The position numbers and the translations under genes were made by a program. The notes beneath the pieces are model-generated. The model did not search any database. It had not been told where the DNA came from and was given only the letters and a program-made list of their open reading frames with translations. Shown piece after piece: positions 49,958 to 58,228 of a stretch of DNA of 64,000 nt. How positions within the stretch are numbered: the stretch's first letter is position 1; every line of letters begins with the position of its first letter. This DNA comes from Mesorhizobium loti. Its GTDB lineage: Bacteria; Pseudomonadota; Alphaproteobacteria; Rhizobiales; Rhizobiaceae. The stretch is from positions 6,763,001-6,827,000 of the forward strand of contig CP050293.1 of the NCBI GenBank assembly GCA_014189435.1, given 5' to 3'.

Positions 49958-52297
<2,340 letters not shown>

Positions 52298-52345
52298 GCG
52301 CAACCCCAACACATACGCACCATTTTAATGGTCGGGATTACGCTT
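52298..52345. repeat. Repeat copy A at the 5' side of the histidine kinase gene
   Basis: About 48 bases starting GCGCAACCCCAACACATACG and containing CATTTTAATGGTCGGGATT. It recurs at 53643-53690 with few changes, so a piece of the kinase upstream region was duplicated. Confidence 0.85.
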
Positions 52346-53257: not shown

Positions 53258-53482
53258 GGCATCCCTCCAACTCTGTCCGCACCGCGTGGTTGCCGTGTGG
53301 ATGGCAAAGTCGGATCGATCCTCTGCTTCGGCAGGCTTCCGCTCAAGTTCTATTTCTGAATTGGCCGGCGGAGGGCGAGCGGGCTCTGACCGACCCATGG
53401 ACAAAGAATACGAGCAGTTTTGCCGATCGCCATTGCGCCCGGAAATGCTCGTGACGCGCTGGGCGCCGTTGGTTGGCCAATC

Positions 53483-53640
53483 TCAGCTGTTACGCGCCGC
53501 CACGAATGTCGCCGCTTCTTTCAGCAATTGGGCGTCGTCACCATAAGGCTCGAGCAGTGCATGCGCCTGGTCAACGAGGCCGTGCCCAATTTGCTTCATG
53601 CGGCGCGACCAGTGTTGCCTTACTGGCGGCGACGCCCTAG
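53483..53640 (-). pseudogene. Remnant of polyprenyl synthetase gene 3' end
   Basis: The minus strand encodes the last 33 residues of the intact gene at 57243 without any change (HGLVDQAHALLEPYGDDAQL through VAARNS). Upstream it is broken by a deletion of about 13 bases relative to the intact gene, then homology continues with many substitutions to about 53637. DNA similarity also runs past the stop to GGCGCCGTTGGTTGGCC at 53462. The rest of the 53258-53718 gap has no gene. Confidence 0.88.
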
Positions 53641-53642
53641 CC

Positions 53643-53690
53643 GCGCAATCCCAACACGTGCGCATCATTTTAATGGTCGGGATTGCGCTA
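53643..53690. repeat. Repeat copy A' abutting the polyprenyl synthetase remnant
   Basis: GCGCAATCCCAACACGTGCG followed by CATTTTAATGGTCGGGATT; a close copy of 52298-52345, with weaker similarity continuing to about 53709. It ends just before the stop of the metallo-beta-lactamase gene. Confidence 0.85.
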
Positions 53691-53718: not shown

Positions 53719-54894
53719 CTAGAAATCGATCTTTATCGGTGTTCCGTCCGAAACCGTGATGCGGTTGCCTTGTTGCCAGCGTTGGATGATCGGCGTGATC
53801 GAGTGGATCGCGGGATCGAACTTGACTTTCTGGTTGCGGCGCCAGGCCTCGTGCTGGATGTCGCAGTCCTGCGCCGCCACGGTCAGGTAGACCTTGATCT
53901 TGCGGTTGCCGGTGCCCTGTTCCAGCATCTCAAGCGAGGCACGGTCGGGGTTACCGAAATTGCCGTTGGCCGAAATGATATAGTGCTTGGCCTCGATAAT
54001 CTGGAAGAAGCTCGTCTCAAGGTCGCGGTCCGAGCCATGATGAGGCACTTTCAGCACGTCGATTTTCAGCTTGCCGTTCCTGATCAGGCCGGCATTGTCG
54101 CACGCCTTGACGATCAGATCGCCTCTCGCATCGCCTGTCAGCAGCATCGTGGTGCCGTTGTATTCGAGCAAAGCGACGATGCTGGCAAGGTTCGGGATTG
54201 AAGTGTCGAGGTATTCCGCGAGCGCTGCGGGGCCAGCGCCGGTGGGATCGAGCTTCTCTCGCCACTCTTTGCGGAACTCCTCGACCTGCTCAACGAGCGG
54301 GCCAAGGATGCGCAGGGTCGCGTCGCCGACGGACATAGGCGGGCGATCGCCGGTGAGGAGGGACTGGTCGGGCGGGTTCCGTGTCACTTGCAGGAACGAG
54401 GCAAGCGACCCCAGCTTCAGCGCTTCGGGGTAGCTCTGCAGCACAGCCGCGGCCACAGGATCCGGCTCCGTTGCCAGTGCGAATGGTCCGGGCCCGCCGA
54501 AACTGGCAAGCGAGGCTGGACCACCCACATCGCGTGCTGCGGTTCCCTCCCCTTCGCCCAGGATGGCGTCAAAGCCATTGTGCAGCAGCCATATCGGCTT
54601 GTAAGGCCTGGGGATGTTGCGTTCATCCGCGTCGCGCATGGCCTCGAGAAGCTGGATGATGCCGTTGATATGGTCCTGGTCGATGTGGCTGACCATGACA
54701 ATGTCGAGCTTTAGTGGAACCTCGTCCGGGAAGGCCTGCTGCTCCTTTTTCAGCCTGACCTTGAGCGATGCGTTGAACACGCCGGGCGGACCACCATCGA
54801 CGAGGATGCGGGTAGGGCGATCGTTGCCATTGCCAAATGTCAGGAAAAGGCAGTCACCGTATTTGGCGGGTAGTGCCTCGATGTGAAATGCCAC
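53719..54894 (-). CDS. ComEC/Rec2-type soluble metallo-beta-lactamase fold protein
   Basis: 391 residues from GTG 54894, set by AGGAGG that overlaps the protease stop. The MBL fold is seen in KYGDCLFLTFGNG, ILVDGGPPG, the metal motif SHIDQDHING (HxDxDH, as in ComEC), LLTGDARGDL and VPHHGSDRDLETSF. Unlike ComEC it has no membrane domain and no signal peptide, so it is probably cytoplasmic. An insert of about 130 residues sits between the first metal motif and the TGDA motif. It is translationally coupled to the subtilase; function unknown, a nuclease or phosphodiesterase is plausible. Confidence 0.85.
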   Translation of the reverse strand: MAFHIEALPAKYGDCLFLTFGNGNDRPTRILVDGGPPGVFNASLKVRLKKEQQAFPDEVPLKLDIVMVSHIDQDHINGIIQLLEAMRDADERNIPRPYKPIWLLHNGFDAILGEGEGTAARDVGGPASLASFGGPGPFALATEPDPVAAAVLQSYPEALKLGSLASFLQVTRNPPDQSLLTGDRPPMSVGDATLRILGPLVEQVEEFRKEWREKLDPTGAGPAALAEYLDTSIPNLASIVALLEYNGTTMLLTGDARGDLIVKACDNAGLIRNGKLKIDVLKVPHHGSDRDLETSFFQIIEAKHYIISANGNFGNPDRASLEMLEQGTGNRKIKVYLTVAAQDCDIQHEAWRRNQKVKFDPAIHSITPIIQRWQQGNRITVSDGTPIKIDF

Positions 54895-54904
54895 TCTATG
54901 CCTC

Positions 54905-56773
54905 CTACGGGGTTTGCAGTGCACGCAGGGCATCGACCAGCCCGGCGCCCTGGAAGTGCCGCTCACGTTTCAGGTCGGTGGCGCTGCCGACAATCACCGC
55001 CTTCACGTCGCGCGGCTTGCCGATCAACTCCGCGTTGCGGGCCATCAGCAAGGCCGCCACCCCCGAGACGTGCGGCGCCGACATGCTTGTGCCATCCAGT
55101 CTGCCATAGCCCAGATCGGGCAATGGCCCGTCGATGCGCTCGCCGGGGGCCACCACGTCGGGCTTCAAGCGACCATCACCGGTAGGGCCGCGCGATGAGA
55201 AAAAGCTGACCCCATATTCGTGCGGACGGTCGCGATGCGTCGAGCCCACCGTGATCACCGATTCGGCGTTGCCGGGGTCGGCGATGGATGCGTCGGCATA
55301 GCCGTCGTAAATGTCGCCACCATCGAGCACGAACTTCTGCGTGCCCCAGTTGCCGGCGGCGGCCACGACGACGACACCGCTGTTGACTGTGGCTTCGCAC
55401 GCCAGGCACACCGGCGTCCGGCCGCAGGCATAGTTGGCCTTGTCGTGCACCAGCCCGATCGACAGGTTTACGCCGTGGATCGTCATGTAGCGGTTGCGGG
55501 TGTTCAGCCAGCGCACGAACTCCAGCGCGCCAATGACGGCGAATTCGGTGTCTTCGATCGTTTCCGCAATAACCCTCAGGTCGTACAACATGAGGTCCGG
55601 GCAGACGCCCTGGAAGAAGACGTCGTCGCCGTTGCGCCAATCGGCCGCGAGGACCCCCGCCACATGCGTACCGTGACCGATGGGACGGTCGCCCTGGCGC
55701 GGGGTCGGAAGACGATCGGGACTCGTCAAGAGCAACCGAGACAGGACTTCCCAGTCGTAGGGACGTCCATTATCCGCGGCCTCCCACAGCCGTTGCACCG
55801 CCGCGCTCGCCACTGCCTGCGGCAGGCCGAGCTTGTTCACCATGATTCCGGTGAGGTAGTCGCGGTGTTGCGGCAGTATCATTGCATCATAGGCGACGAG
55901 CGAGCGGAGTTCGGCGAAATCATAAGCCTTCTTGACGCGGATGGAGAGATCGCCGGCAGCATGGTCGATGAATGCGGGGTGTGCGCCGTCGATGCCGGAA
56001 TCGATCACGGCCCAGGTCACGCCTCGACAGTTGATATCGAACACACGGCGCGCCGCATCGGCCTTGATGGTGTCCACCGACGCAGCCATCATGGGGTGAA
56101 CATCGCGATTGCGGGAGATCCGGTAGATCATGGGCTCCACACGACGCGTCAGATCATCGAGCAAGGCGTCGAGGTTGAGAGCAGTTCGTGATCGGGCGCC
56201 GCGAGATGTCGTCGGCTCCGGCGCCAGAATGAGCAAGACCAGCAAGGCAGTTCGCAGGTCGGGGGCGAGCCTCCCGAGGGTTCTCTTCTTGAGGTCGTCC
56301 AATTGGGCAAACGTCACCGTCTGGACGGGGGAGGCGCGAGACCCGGGCCCCGGCAGTGTATCAAGCTCCGACAGAGCCAGGGGCAACCCCGATATATCCT
56401 TCAGTTGGCGCACGGCCTGGTGGATGTCGAGCCCGGTGCAGGGCACGACCGTGGTCAGGAAATCCATGAACGTCAGCCTGACCGCGACGACGCCTTCGAG
56501 CGGTGCGATGCGACGTGCCGGGCGCCAGCGCCCATCGTCCTCGCCCGGATAGGCCGCGGTCGAGCGCTCGGCGAGCGTCGTAAGGAGATGCCTCGCGATC
56601 ATCGATGCCTCGATACTGTCCATCGGCGTCAGCAAAAGGTCGACCGGCGCGCCGGGGTCGGCCGCGTAGGCTCTCCAGACATCGAGTTGTATAGCGGTCT
56701 CGTTCAACTGGCGCCGGCCCGCTCGCCCGGACAAGAGGATGTCGTCGACAGTTGAAAAGGCAAGAGTAGCCAT
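54905..56773 (-). CDS. Subtilisin-like (S8) serine protease, apparently cytoplasmic
   Basis: 622 residues from MATLAFSTVDD. The catalytic triad is intact: Asp in AVIDSGIDGAHPAF, His in GHGTHVAGVLA and Ser in DGTSMSAPHVSGVAALL, with the oxyanion Asn in VVVAAAGNWG. The first ~270 residues are an N-terminal region that I do not recognise (segments such as TPMDSIEASMIARHLL and RLTFMDFLTTVVPCTG). No signal peptide is visible. An insert of ~100 residues separates the Asp and His motifs. It is followed at once by the MBL gene. Confidence 0.88.
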   Translation of the reverse strand: MATLAFSTVDDILLSGRAGRRQLNETAIQLDVWRAYAADPGAPVDLLLTPMDSIEASMIARHLLTTLAERSTAAYPGEDDGRWRPARRIAPLEGVVAVRLTFMDFLTTVVPCTGLDIHQAVRQLKDISGLPLALSELDTLPGPGSRASPVQTVTFAQLDDLKKRTLGRLAPDLRTALLVLLILAPEPTTSRGARSRTALNLDALLDDLTRRVEPMIYRISRNRDVHPMMAASVDTIKADAARRVFDINCRGVTWAVIDSGIDGAHPAFIDHAAGDLSIRVKKAYDFAELRSLVAYDAMILPQHRDYLTGIMVNKLGLPQAVASAAVQRLWEAADNGRPYDWEVLSRLLLTSPDRLPTPRQGDRPIGHGTHVAGVLAADWRNGDDVFFQGVCPDLMLYDLRVIAETIEDTEFAVIGALEFVRWLNTRNRYMTIHGVNLSIGLVHDKANYACGRTPVCLACEATVNSGVVVVAAAGNWGTQKFVLDGGDIYDGYADASIADPGNAESVITVGSTHRDRPHEYGVSFFSSRGPTGDGRLKPDVVAPGERIDGPLPDLGYGRLDGTSMSAPHVSGVAALLMARNAELIGKPRDVKAVIVGSATDLKRERHFQGAGLVDALRALQTP

Positions 56774-57242
56774 TGTACCCACAGACCTTTGCGCAAACCC
56801 CAGTCGAGTGCAAATCTAGCTACATTGCCTGTCACACTCAATTGTCATTTTGATTTCAGCCGCGCGAATCAAAATGAGCTCGGTACGTGCCTTGTACAGG
56901 TGACAGAAATATTTCCTCGAGCGGCGCAATTTCCTGCATCCTCAAGACGCGTCCGGATATCTACTCCAGCATCTGCCTGATGTTGGTGCCATGGACCGTC
57001 TTTCACTATCTGGCGTGCGATACATTGATGAGGGCGCTGTCGGCGGCTGCAAAACCTCGAGCGCGGGTGTAGGGATGCGGATCATCTGTGCAAGAATTGC
57101 AGATCCCATTGATGCGAGGCGGCTGATGCGAGGCGGCCCGGCAGGCGCATAGCCGGGATCAGTCGGCCGCGAAAATGTTTGGGTGCAAAACAGGCGAAAA
57201 TTGGCACCCCGATCGAAGTGGCGCCGTTGGTTGGCCCCAACC
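56774..57242. other. Gene-free stretch between subtilase and polyprenyl synthetase genes
   Basis: 469 bases with no supported gene. It must hold the protease-operon promoter. A 14-base tandem duplication (GATGCGAGGCGGCT/C) lies at 57111-57138. From 57220 the sequence is shared with the remnant at 53462. The base composition looks less GC-rich near 56820-57000; I did not measure it. Confidence 0.6.
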
Positions 57243-58160
57243 TCAGCTGTTACGCGCCGCCACGAATGTCGCCGCTTCCTTCAGCAATTGGGCGTCGTCG
57301 CCATAGGGCTCAAGCAGCGCATGCGCCTGGTCGACGAGGCCGTGCAACTGGCTGCGCGCCCAATTGGCGCCATGCAGAGCGACCAGCGTCGCCTTGCCGG
57401 CGGCAGCGTCCTTGCCGGTCGCCTTGCCCATCTGGCTGGCATCGGCGGTCAGGTCGAGCAGGTCGTCGGCAAGCTGGAAGGCAAGGCCGATCGCGGAGCC
57501 GAATTCGGCCAGCCGCTCGCGATCCTCGGCGGCAGCGCCGGCGATGAGGGCGCCGGCCTCGCAGGCAAAGCGGATCAGCGCGCCGGTCTTCATCGCCTGC
57601 AGCCGGATGATGCCGGCCTCGTCCGGTGGCGCCTGTTCGGCTTCGAGGTCGAGCTTCTGGCCGCCGACCATGCCGCCCGCCCCGGCCGCGCGGGCAAGCG
57701 CCAGCACCAGGGCTGCCCGCCGCTCCGCCGGCAGGGTGGTCGCCTCGCTGGCGATGATGTCGAAGGCCAGCGTCAGCAAGGCGTCGCCTGCCAGGATGGC
57801 AGTCGCCTCGTCGAAGGCCTTGTGCACGGTCGGCTGGCCACGGCGCAGGTCGTCGTCGTCCATGGCGGGCAGGTCGTCGTGGATCAGCGAATAGCAATGC
57901 ACGCATTCAAGCGCTGCGGCGACGCGCAGTGCCGCCTCGCCGTCGGCGGAAAAAAGCGCCGCACTTTCCATGACCAGGAAGGGACGCAGGCGCTTGCCGC
58001 CGTTCAGGACGCCATGCCGCATCGCGGCCATCAAACGGTCGGGCCGAGCGATCTCGCCCGAAAGCGCGCGGTCGTCGAGCAATCGCCGCAGCAGCACCTC
58101 GACGGCGGCTGCCCGTCTGATGAGCGCCATTTCGAACGCCATTTCGTCGTCATTCGTCAT
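57243..58160 (-). CDS. Polyprenyl (farnesyl/geranylgeranyl) diphosphate synthase
   Basis: 305 residues from MTNDDEMAFE. Condenses isopentenyl diphosphate with allylic diphosphates. The first Asp-rich motif is DDLPAMDDDD, with GGKRLRPFL before it and AFQLADDLLDLTADA carrying the second. The chain-length region before the first motif (ALECVHCYSLIHDDLP) fits the IspA group, so farnesyl diphosphate is the likely product. Its 3' end is duplicated at 53483-53640. It is divergent from mtgA. Confidence 0.92.
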   Translation of the reverse strand: MTNDDEMAFEMALIRRAAAVEVLLRRLLDDRALSGEIARPDRLMAAMRHGVLNGGKRLRPFLVMESAALFSADGEAALRVAAALECVHCYSLIHDDLPAMDDDDLRRGQPTVHKAFDEATAILAGDALLTLAFDIIASEATTLPAERRAALVLALARAAGAGGMVGGQKLDLEAEQAPPDEAGIIRLQAMKTGALIRFACEAGALIAGAAAEDRERLAEFGSAIGLAFQLADDLLDLTADASQMGKATGKDAAAGKATLVALHGANWARSQLHGLVDQAHALLEPYGDDAQLLKEAATFVAARNS

Positions 58161-58228
58161 GGCCGGGACCGGTAGCCGACACTCAGACGTTGCGCAAGAA
58201 GGCAAGCGCCATTATGCCGGAGCAGTAA

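Follow-up and report, generated by a model that had tools for sequence, protein, structure and literature searches.

This report concerns a two-gene module in a stretch of 64,000 nucleotides (nt) from Mesorhizobium loti (contig CP050293.1, positions 6,763,001 to 6,827,000 of the forward strand; hereafter the window, whose numbering is used for all coordinates unless another locus is named). The module codes for a subtilisin-family (S8) protease and a ComEC-like protein of the metallo-beta-lactamase (MBL) fold, whose genes are adjacent on the minus strand, with the protease upstream and with overlapping translation signals:

54905..56773, minus strand: S8 protease gene, ATG at 56773, stop TAG at 54905-54907 (stop included), 622 residues
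53719..54894, minus strand: ComEC-like MBL protein gene, GTG start at 54894, stop at 53719, 391 residues
54895..54904, minus strand: junction of 10 nt, whose AGGAGG Shine-Dalgarno sequence overlaps the S8 stop TAG (54905-54907), read from the sequence

This arrangement bears out the translational coupling proposed in a first-pass annotation of the same DNA. We place the MBL start at GTG 54894 and regard the 415-residue open reading frame (ORF) as an over-extension, because the nearest relatives are 391 residues long. A promoter and terminator scan of the locus returned one promoter-like match, and shuffled sequence gives as many. The source genome contains one match each for the S8 and MBL proteins, and the pair is also present in other genera and on plasmids; together these observations suggest that the pairing is more than chance.

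Conservation of the neighborhood, which the first-pass annotation had set as a check, was found across the relatives collected. Twenty-two of the 37 loci examined with profiles encode a close MBL (E < 1e-70), and in each of these an S8 ORF immediately precedes the MBL gene in the same orientation; with two later loci added, this becomes 24 of 24, window included. Because some loci had been fetched through S8, a fairer count is that of loci fetched through the MBL, where S8 lies directly upstream in 15/15, comprising 8/8 genomes (L115-L120, L206 and L207) and 7/7 plasmids (L088, L090, L091 and L127-L130). Nineteen plasmid records match the MBL, and eight were fetched through it; in the eighth (L089) the MBL is less closely related (4e-51) and a caspase gene lies two genes before it. 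Distant MBLs only (7.6e-21 to 2e-30) are present in five other genomes, none of which has S8 directly upstream: a caspase gene is directly upstream in L121 and two genes upstream in L122 and L125, the MBL of L123 lies by a Tle1-like gene and that of L124 by a sub-threshold trypsin-like match. In an independent count using longest contigs of equal size, 32 of the 73 best S8 clusters link to an MBL cluster among the best 76. Among the S8-first loci examined with profiles, the MBL is present in 8/9 whose S8 matches the whole profile including the N-terminus (the exception being L005) and in 0/8 whose S8 match begins at profile position 125 or beyond. A tblastn search for the MBL in 80 S8-first loci (eight of them inspected further; 9 of 22 S8-first plasmids fetched) was positive in two, and most of the 80 share just the protease core, at roughly 30%, and resemble generic subtilases.

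Two kinds of S8 protease pair with this MBL clade. One is closely related to the S8 protein of the window; the other is divergent (L088, L090, L091, L117, L118, L120 and L127-L130), and Pfam confirms it as S8 in all eight scanned of the ten. For 41 pairs of the close kind (30 linked through equal-sized longest contigs and 11 by locus, 2 of the 32 linked pairs being left out for length), the distances of the S8 and MBL proteins correlate at r 0.917, against a highest value of 0.447 in 2000 permutations. In a tree of 32 MBLs, which has several long end branches and is rooted at the midpoint only, the 22 S8-linked members fall on one side of a branch (support 96/97), separately from the caspase-linked and Avs1a-like members. 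The distribution of the pair is patchy, and plasmid copies are many.

The S8 protein is recognized by Pfam as Peptidase_S8 (4.2e-40), and its nearest PADLOC profile is 'subtilase' (3.2e-43). The catalytic triad, described as intact at first pass, is indeed so: D258, H367 and S563, together with N475 (counted from ATG 56773), are invariant in 27 aligned S8 sequences, that of the window included. Inspection by eye reveals no visible signal peptide, and the protease is probably cytoplasmic. Two regions stand out:

56105..56650, minus strand: N-terminal region, predicted I9-like prodomain with a helical insertion, residues about 42-223 (structure-based)
55730..55918, minus strand: helical insertion between Asp258 and His367, residues about 286-348

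The Asp-to-His spacing is 109 residues, against 32 in subtilisin BPN'. The first-pass annotation had left about 270 N-terminal residues unassigned; of these about 225 can now be assigned, by structural modeling only, as a subtilisin prodomain with a helical insert. Pro-form subtilisins superpose from model residue 44 (residue 42 of the protein), with 341 aligned positions for 2zwp versus 270 for the mature-only 2z30. At the level of sequence, Pfam I9 matches 0/27 of the aligned members. The idea of a death-like adaptor at the N-terminus was abandoned once the superposition matched pro-subtilisins.

The MBL protein matches Pfam Lactamase_B (7.9e-07), and its nearest PADLOC matches are LmuA (3e-46), RTasMBL (6.7e-31) and Avs1a (1.6e-26); its best sequence and fold matches are ComEC proteins. 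Its features are as follows:

54670..54687, minus strand: HIDQDH metal motif, residues 70-75
54442..54558, minus strand: putative gating insertion 1, residues about 113-151, with the lowest model confidence (10-residue blocks of 73-81)
54499..54510, minus strand: candidate protease site LASF in insertion 1, residues 129-132, pattern in 58/86 sequences
54202..54258, minus strand: putative gating insertion 2, residues about 213-231, with model confidence of 77 and 80 by block
54211..54222, minus strand: candidate protease site LAEY in insertion 2, residues 225-228, pattern in 45/86 sequences
54031..54042, minus strand: HHGS metal motif, residues 285-288

The metal motifs reported earlier are confirmed and joined by a TGD motif at residues 253-255, with H70, D72, D74, H75, D255 and H285 invariant in 35 aligned sequences including the window. 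The protein is modeled as a ComEC-type nuclease fold with intact metal ligands and predicted nuclease activity. It differs from the nuclease domain of ComEC in being soluble, as judged by its sequence, in lacking a channel domain, and in having about 88 extra positions in two insertions, both of which sit where Avs1a-like and caspase-linked relatives have theirs (a comparison of presence only). In the insertions subtilisin-like motifs recur, and A130, within the first candidate site, is found in 80/86 MBL sequences. As a separate observation, locus L087 (3063-6003) contains a second, distant MBL (LmuA 2.9e-17) after a 580-residue gene, shortly before an FRG gene and the S8-MBL pair.

Neither protein scores above the cut-off of any NCBIfam model. 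IetAS consists of an AAA ATPase and an S8 protease; it resembles the present pair in having an S8 protease in an anti-phage pair, whereas here the partner is an MBL and no ATPase adjoins. Membership of IetAS was rejected (NCBIfam IetS, 19.6 bits against a cut-off of 900), as was membership of Avs1, the type 1 AVAST system (Avs1a, 120.4 bits against a cut-off of 420). A closer comparison is offered by Tuck et al. (PMC12799240), in which the trypsin-like protease domain of Hachiman cleaves an MBL pro-nuclease in two insertions to yield a DNase, with matching cleavage and mutation data for AVAST. The same source describes a caspase-nuclease (canu) locus that protects against phage T4, and terms the MBLs of Hachiman, Avs1 and canu 'gated pro-nucleases'. 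The systems treated there (HamM/HamA, Avs1a/Avs1b, Lamassu and DRT variants) share with our pair a ComEC-like MBL whose metal motifs are separated by two insertions, a neighboring protease, patchy spread and a defence context in some relatives. In contrast to them, the protease of our pair is stand-alone and not sensor-fused, lies upstream of the nuclease, and belongs to Peptidase_S8 and not to the trypsin-like or caspase-like types of the published pairs; a sensor gene is absent and the nuclease forms its own clade. The CanABC genes of canu are similar in having a stand-alone protease upstream and a related MBL downstream on the same strand (PMC12799240). They differ in that S8 replaces the caspase, which excludes canu membership, in that our module has two genes with no CanB-like middle gene, and in that its nuclease clade is separate from the MBLs of L089, L121, L122 and L125. 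Two of these loci deserve separate mention: L089 (4310-12848) has the order DUF2235, caspase, one gene, MBL, which is canu-like with a phospholipase gene, and an adjoining convergent S8 and AAA ATPase pair that is IetAS-like by annotation only; L125 (157-8438) has a caspase, one gene, the MBL, one gene and an S8-like gene (2e-12, two genes downstream of the MBL), with a patatin gene nearby.

The earlier remark that the pairing is not known as a characterised system needs changing as regards its logic, which has been published for trypsin-like and caspase proteases (PMC12799240). That paper mentions nuclease homologues with 'other diverse' protease families, mapped in its fig. S2; the sole 'subtil' in its main text is Bacillus subtilis. 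No description of the S8-MBL pair was found among the matches listed in the literature searched, which covers few subscription papers.

Taking these observations together, we consider it reasonably likely that the pair is a two-gene conflict module, probably anti-phage, in which an S8 protease activates a ComEC-type pro-nuclease. By analogy, backed by homology of the MBLs, it most likely fits the gated pro-nuclease logic. The analysis shows a conserved pairing, co-varying distances, a nuclease clade of its own, a ComEC-like fold with two insertions, intact active-site motifs and, in some relatives, defence genes nearby; from there we infer the zymogen control, the cleavage and its sites, the DNase activity, the trigger and the defence role. 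The MBL would be made as an inactive DNase pro-enzyme with its active site closed by the two putatively flexible insertions, and the S8 protein would be a cytoplasmic zymogen restrained by its I9-like prodomain. An infection cue may activate the protease, either by direct sensing through the enlarged prodomain or the Asp-His insert, or by relay from neighboring systems. The active protease would then cleave within the MBL insertions, with the L-A-[SGE]-[LFY] motifs as the probable sites, and the released DNase would destroy DNA, leading to cell death or arrest.

In some relatives conflict genes are neighbors of the pair. On the Methylorubrum plasmid pCMU01, the Pycsar genes PycC (2e-220), an E2 protein and PycTIR (4.5e-92) are followed 288 nt on by the pair on the same strand; in L004 the pair sits within a Thoeris locus, flanked by ThsB genes (1.1e-123 and 5.2e-74 to one side, 6.3e-59 to the other) and with ThsA (2.8e-178) nearby; and in L091 SduA of Shedu (4.6e-138) is about 1.2 kb from the pair. 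The layout of a conflict or stress-response module, suggested at first pass, is supported in part: the coupled pair is conserved, one member plausibly activates the other, and conflict genes lie near the pair in some relatives, with no defence gene beside the pair of the window.

In the source genome the pair occupies a variable chromosomal interval, whose genes are named here by reading of their sequences, flanked by histidine-kinase (49958-52312) and prenyl-synthase (57243-58205) genes. Among 32 same-genus genomes read over about 11-16 kb each, the kinase is present in 29, the interval is nearly empty (71-167 bp) in five, a methyltransferase is alone in it in three, and the S8-MBL pair occurs in 0/32. 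Two duplications belong to the interval, one of 109 nt at 94% (53477-53585 and 57237-57345) and one of 47 nt at 89% (52298-52344 and 53643-53689):

53469..53642, no strand given: 3' end of the neighboring prenyl-synthase-like gene in a degenerate copy; its 109-nt core is 94% identical to 57237-57345; 80.5% to that of relative L163; abuts the next repeat
53643..53689, no strand given: histidine-kinase-like gene, copied 5' end, the other copy being 52298-52344
57237..57345, no strand given: 3' end of the intact prenyl-synthase-like gene, carrying the 109-nt repeat, at the right edge of the module

The duplications are explained by two stacked cargoes, each with ends of the flanking genes: kinase end, methyltransferase and synthase end, then kinase end, MBL/S8 and synthase, with the two inner ends meeting exactly at 53642/53643. 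What the duplications show is acquisition and not defence. The framing by duplications noticed at first pass is thus real, and it is part of a variable, mostly metabolic-looking interval; likewise the variable island next to defence genes, proposed as a check, was found as regards the variable interval and the defence neighbors of some relatives, with no convincing PADLOC match among 10 neighbors in the window. A second, degenerate synthase end is also present in locus L175 (12720-12837), so cargoes may stack repeatedly at this interval. Three other origins were set aside: a defence island in the source genome is unsupported, with interval cargo in relatives mostly metabolic in appearance and window neighbors without a convincing PADLOC match; as to an integrated element bringing its own recombinase, no ORF for one was seen in the module, and the repeats are ends of flanking chromosomal genes; and for a phage-borne origin viral contigs gave eight distant MBL matches only and phage records four weak partial ones.

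Several observations weigh against an S8-activated pro-nuclease. PADLOC gave strong neighbor matches in only 3 of the 11 pair loci scanned (out of 24, window included, chosen by eye), and several other pair loci, e.g. L130, lie among metabolic genes. On 10 window neighbors it returned weak or generic matches only (the best being a methyltransferase, mad2, 2.3e-22), and the 22 intervals called in relatives carry mostly what read as dehydrogenases, transporters and regulators. The pair has no separate sensor of the Avs1/Hachiman type. In alignment with Protein Data Bank (PDB) sequences, the second motif block of the MBL alone is significant by itself, and the insertion loops are modeled with moderate confidence (73-81), not as disordered. 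The site pattern was picked post hoc: its registers at 129 and 225 rank second and third, and the top one, at 236 (84/86), is in the core strand. In L115 (2927-4956) and L126 (7296-9267) S8 is spread over two frames next to an intact MBL, possibly through decay or sequencing error. Finally, plain joint inheritance alone could produce the correlation between the distances of the S8 and MBL proteins.

Three other explanations were considered. The pair might be part of a larger membrane-attack module, controlling or accompanying a phospholipase (patatin or Tle1-like DUF2235) or other effector, the window copy being a remnant minus its third gene. Phospholipase genes do adjoin the pair in L084 (patatin, directly upstream) and in L004, L086 and L116 (Tle1-like), with patatin one gene away in L085 and a phospholipase gene after the MBL in L127 by annotation, and they are likewise found close to related MBLs in L089, L123 and L125. 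We nevertheless hold this to be unlikely, as none was noticed in the annotation or ORF lists of other pair loci and the third gene differs between loci (Pycsar TIR, FRG, XendoU or aldo/keto reductase). Still more improbable, in our view, is an MBL phosphodiesterase that degrades a nucleotide signal or small phosphodiester and is regulated or removed by S8, forming a stress-signaling pair with no DNase effector, given that the top sequence and fold matches are to ComEC proteins and that the defence profiles closest to the MBL belong to protease-linked MBLs. We give similarly little weight to a metabolic or housekeeping pair of an exported or intracellular AprX-like subtilase and a hydrolase partner with no conflict role: several relatives are annotated 'serine protease AprX', some copies lie among metabolic genes and the interval here is a site of general plasticity, while the patchy distribution, the many plasmid copies, the Pycsar, Thoeris and Shedu neighbors and the phospholipase partners argue otherwise.

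Related S8 genes also occur without the MBL. In L010, L011, L092, L131 and L132 an alpha/beta-hydrolase-like protein takes the same downstream place, and these proteins are mutually similar; the fold is read from the LxGHSFG motif, because Pfam gives no significant match (sub-threshold for L010, none for L092). This S8-hydrolase pair (L092:7482-10496 and the other four loci) is found on rhizobial plasmids, pRL11 of Rhizobium johnstonii among them, as well as in Mycobacterium colombiense and a Gemmatimonadetes metagenome-assembled genome (MAG). In the Bryobacterales MAG L006 (7297-10004) S8 is followed by a calcineurin-like phosphoesterase (6.2e-17), and after the S8 genes of L005, L008 and L009 no MBL or hydrolase-type partner was recognized. 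Different hydrolases at the same place suggest an S8 switch with exchangeable partners, and we tentatively raise the possibility, which we rate below the pro-nuclease proposal, of a third, independent branch of bacterial protease-gated immunity. There a self-inhibited cytoplasmic subtilisin would be both sensor and switch of exchangeable pro-hydrolase effectors; the loci suggest an MBL nuclease in the window and 23 others, and an alpha/beta-hydrolase-like or calcineurin-like enzyme elsewhere. PMC12799240 foresees 'other proteolytically activated enzyme classes', and if the branch is real, proteolytic activation would reach beyond nucleases through the swapping of the downstream hydrolase.

If the S8-activated pro-nuclease is borne out, a third protease family, beside the trypsin-like and caspase proteases, would unlock a DNA-destroying pro-enzyme in bacteria. 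As a two-gene form without a separate sensor, it would be the simplest switch of its kind, and would allow a direct test of whether one protease both senses infection and activates the effector.
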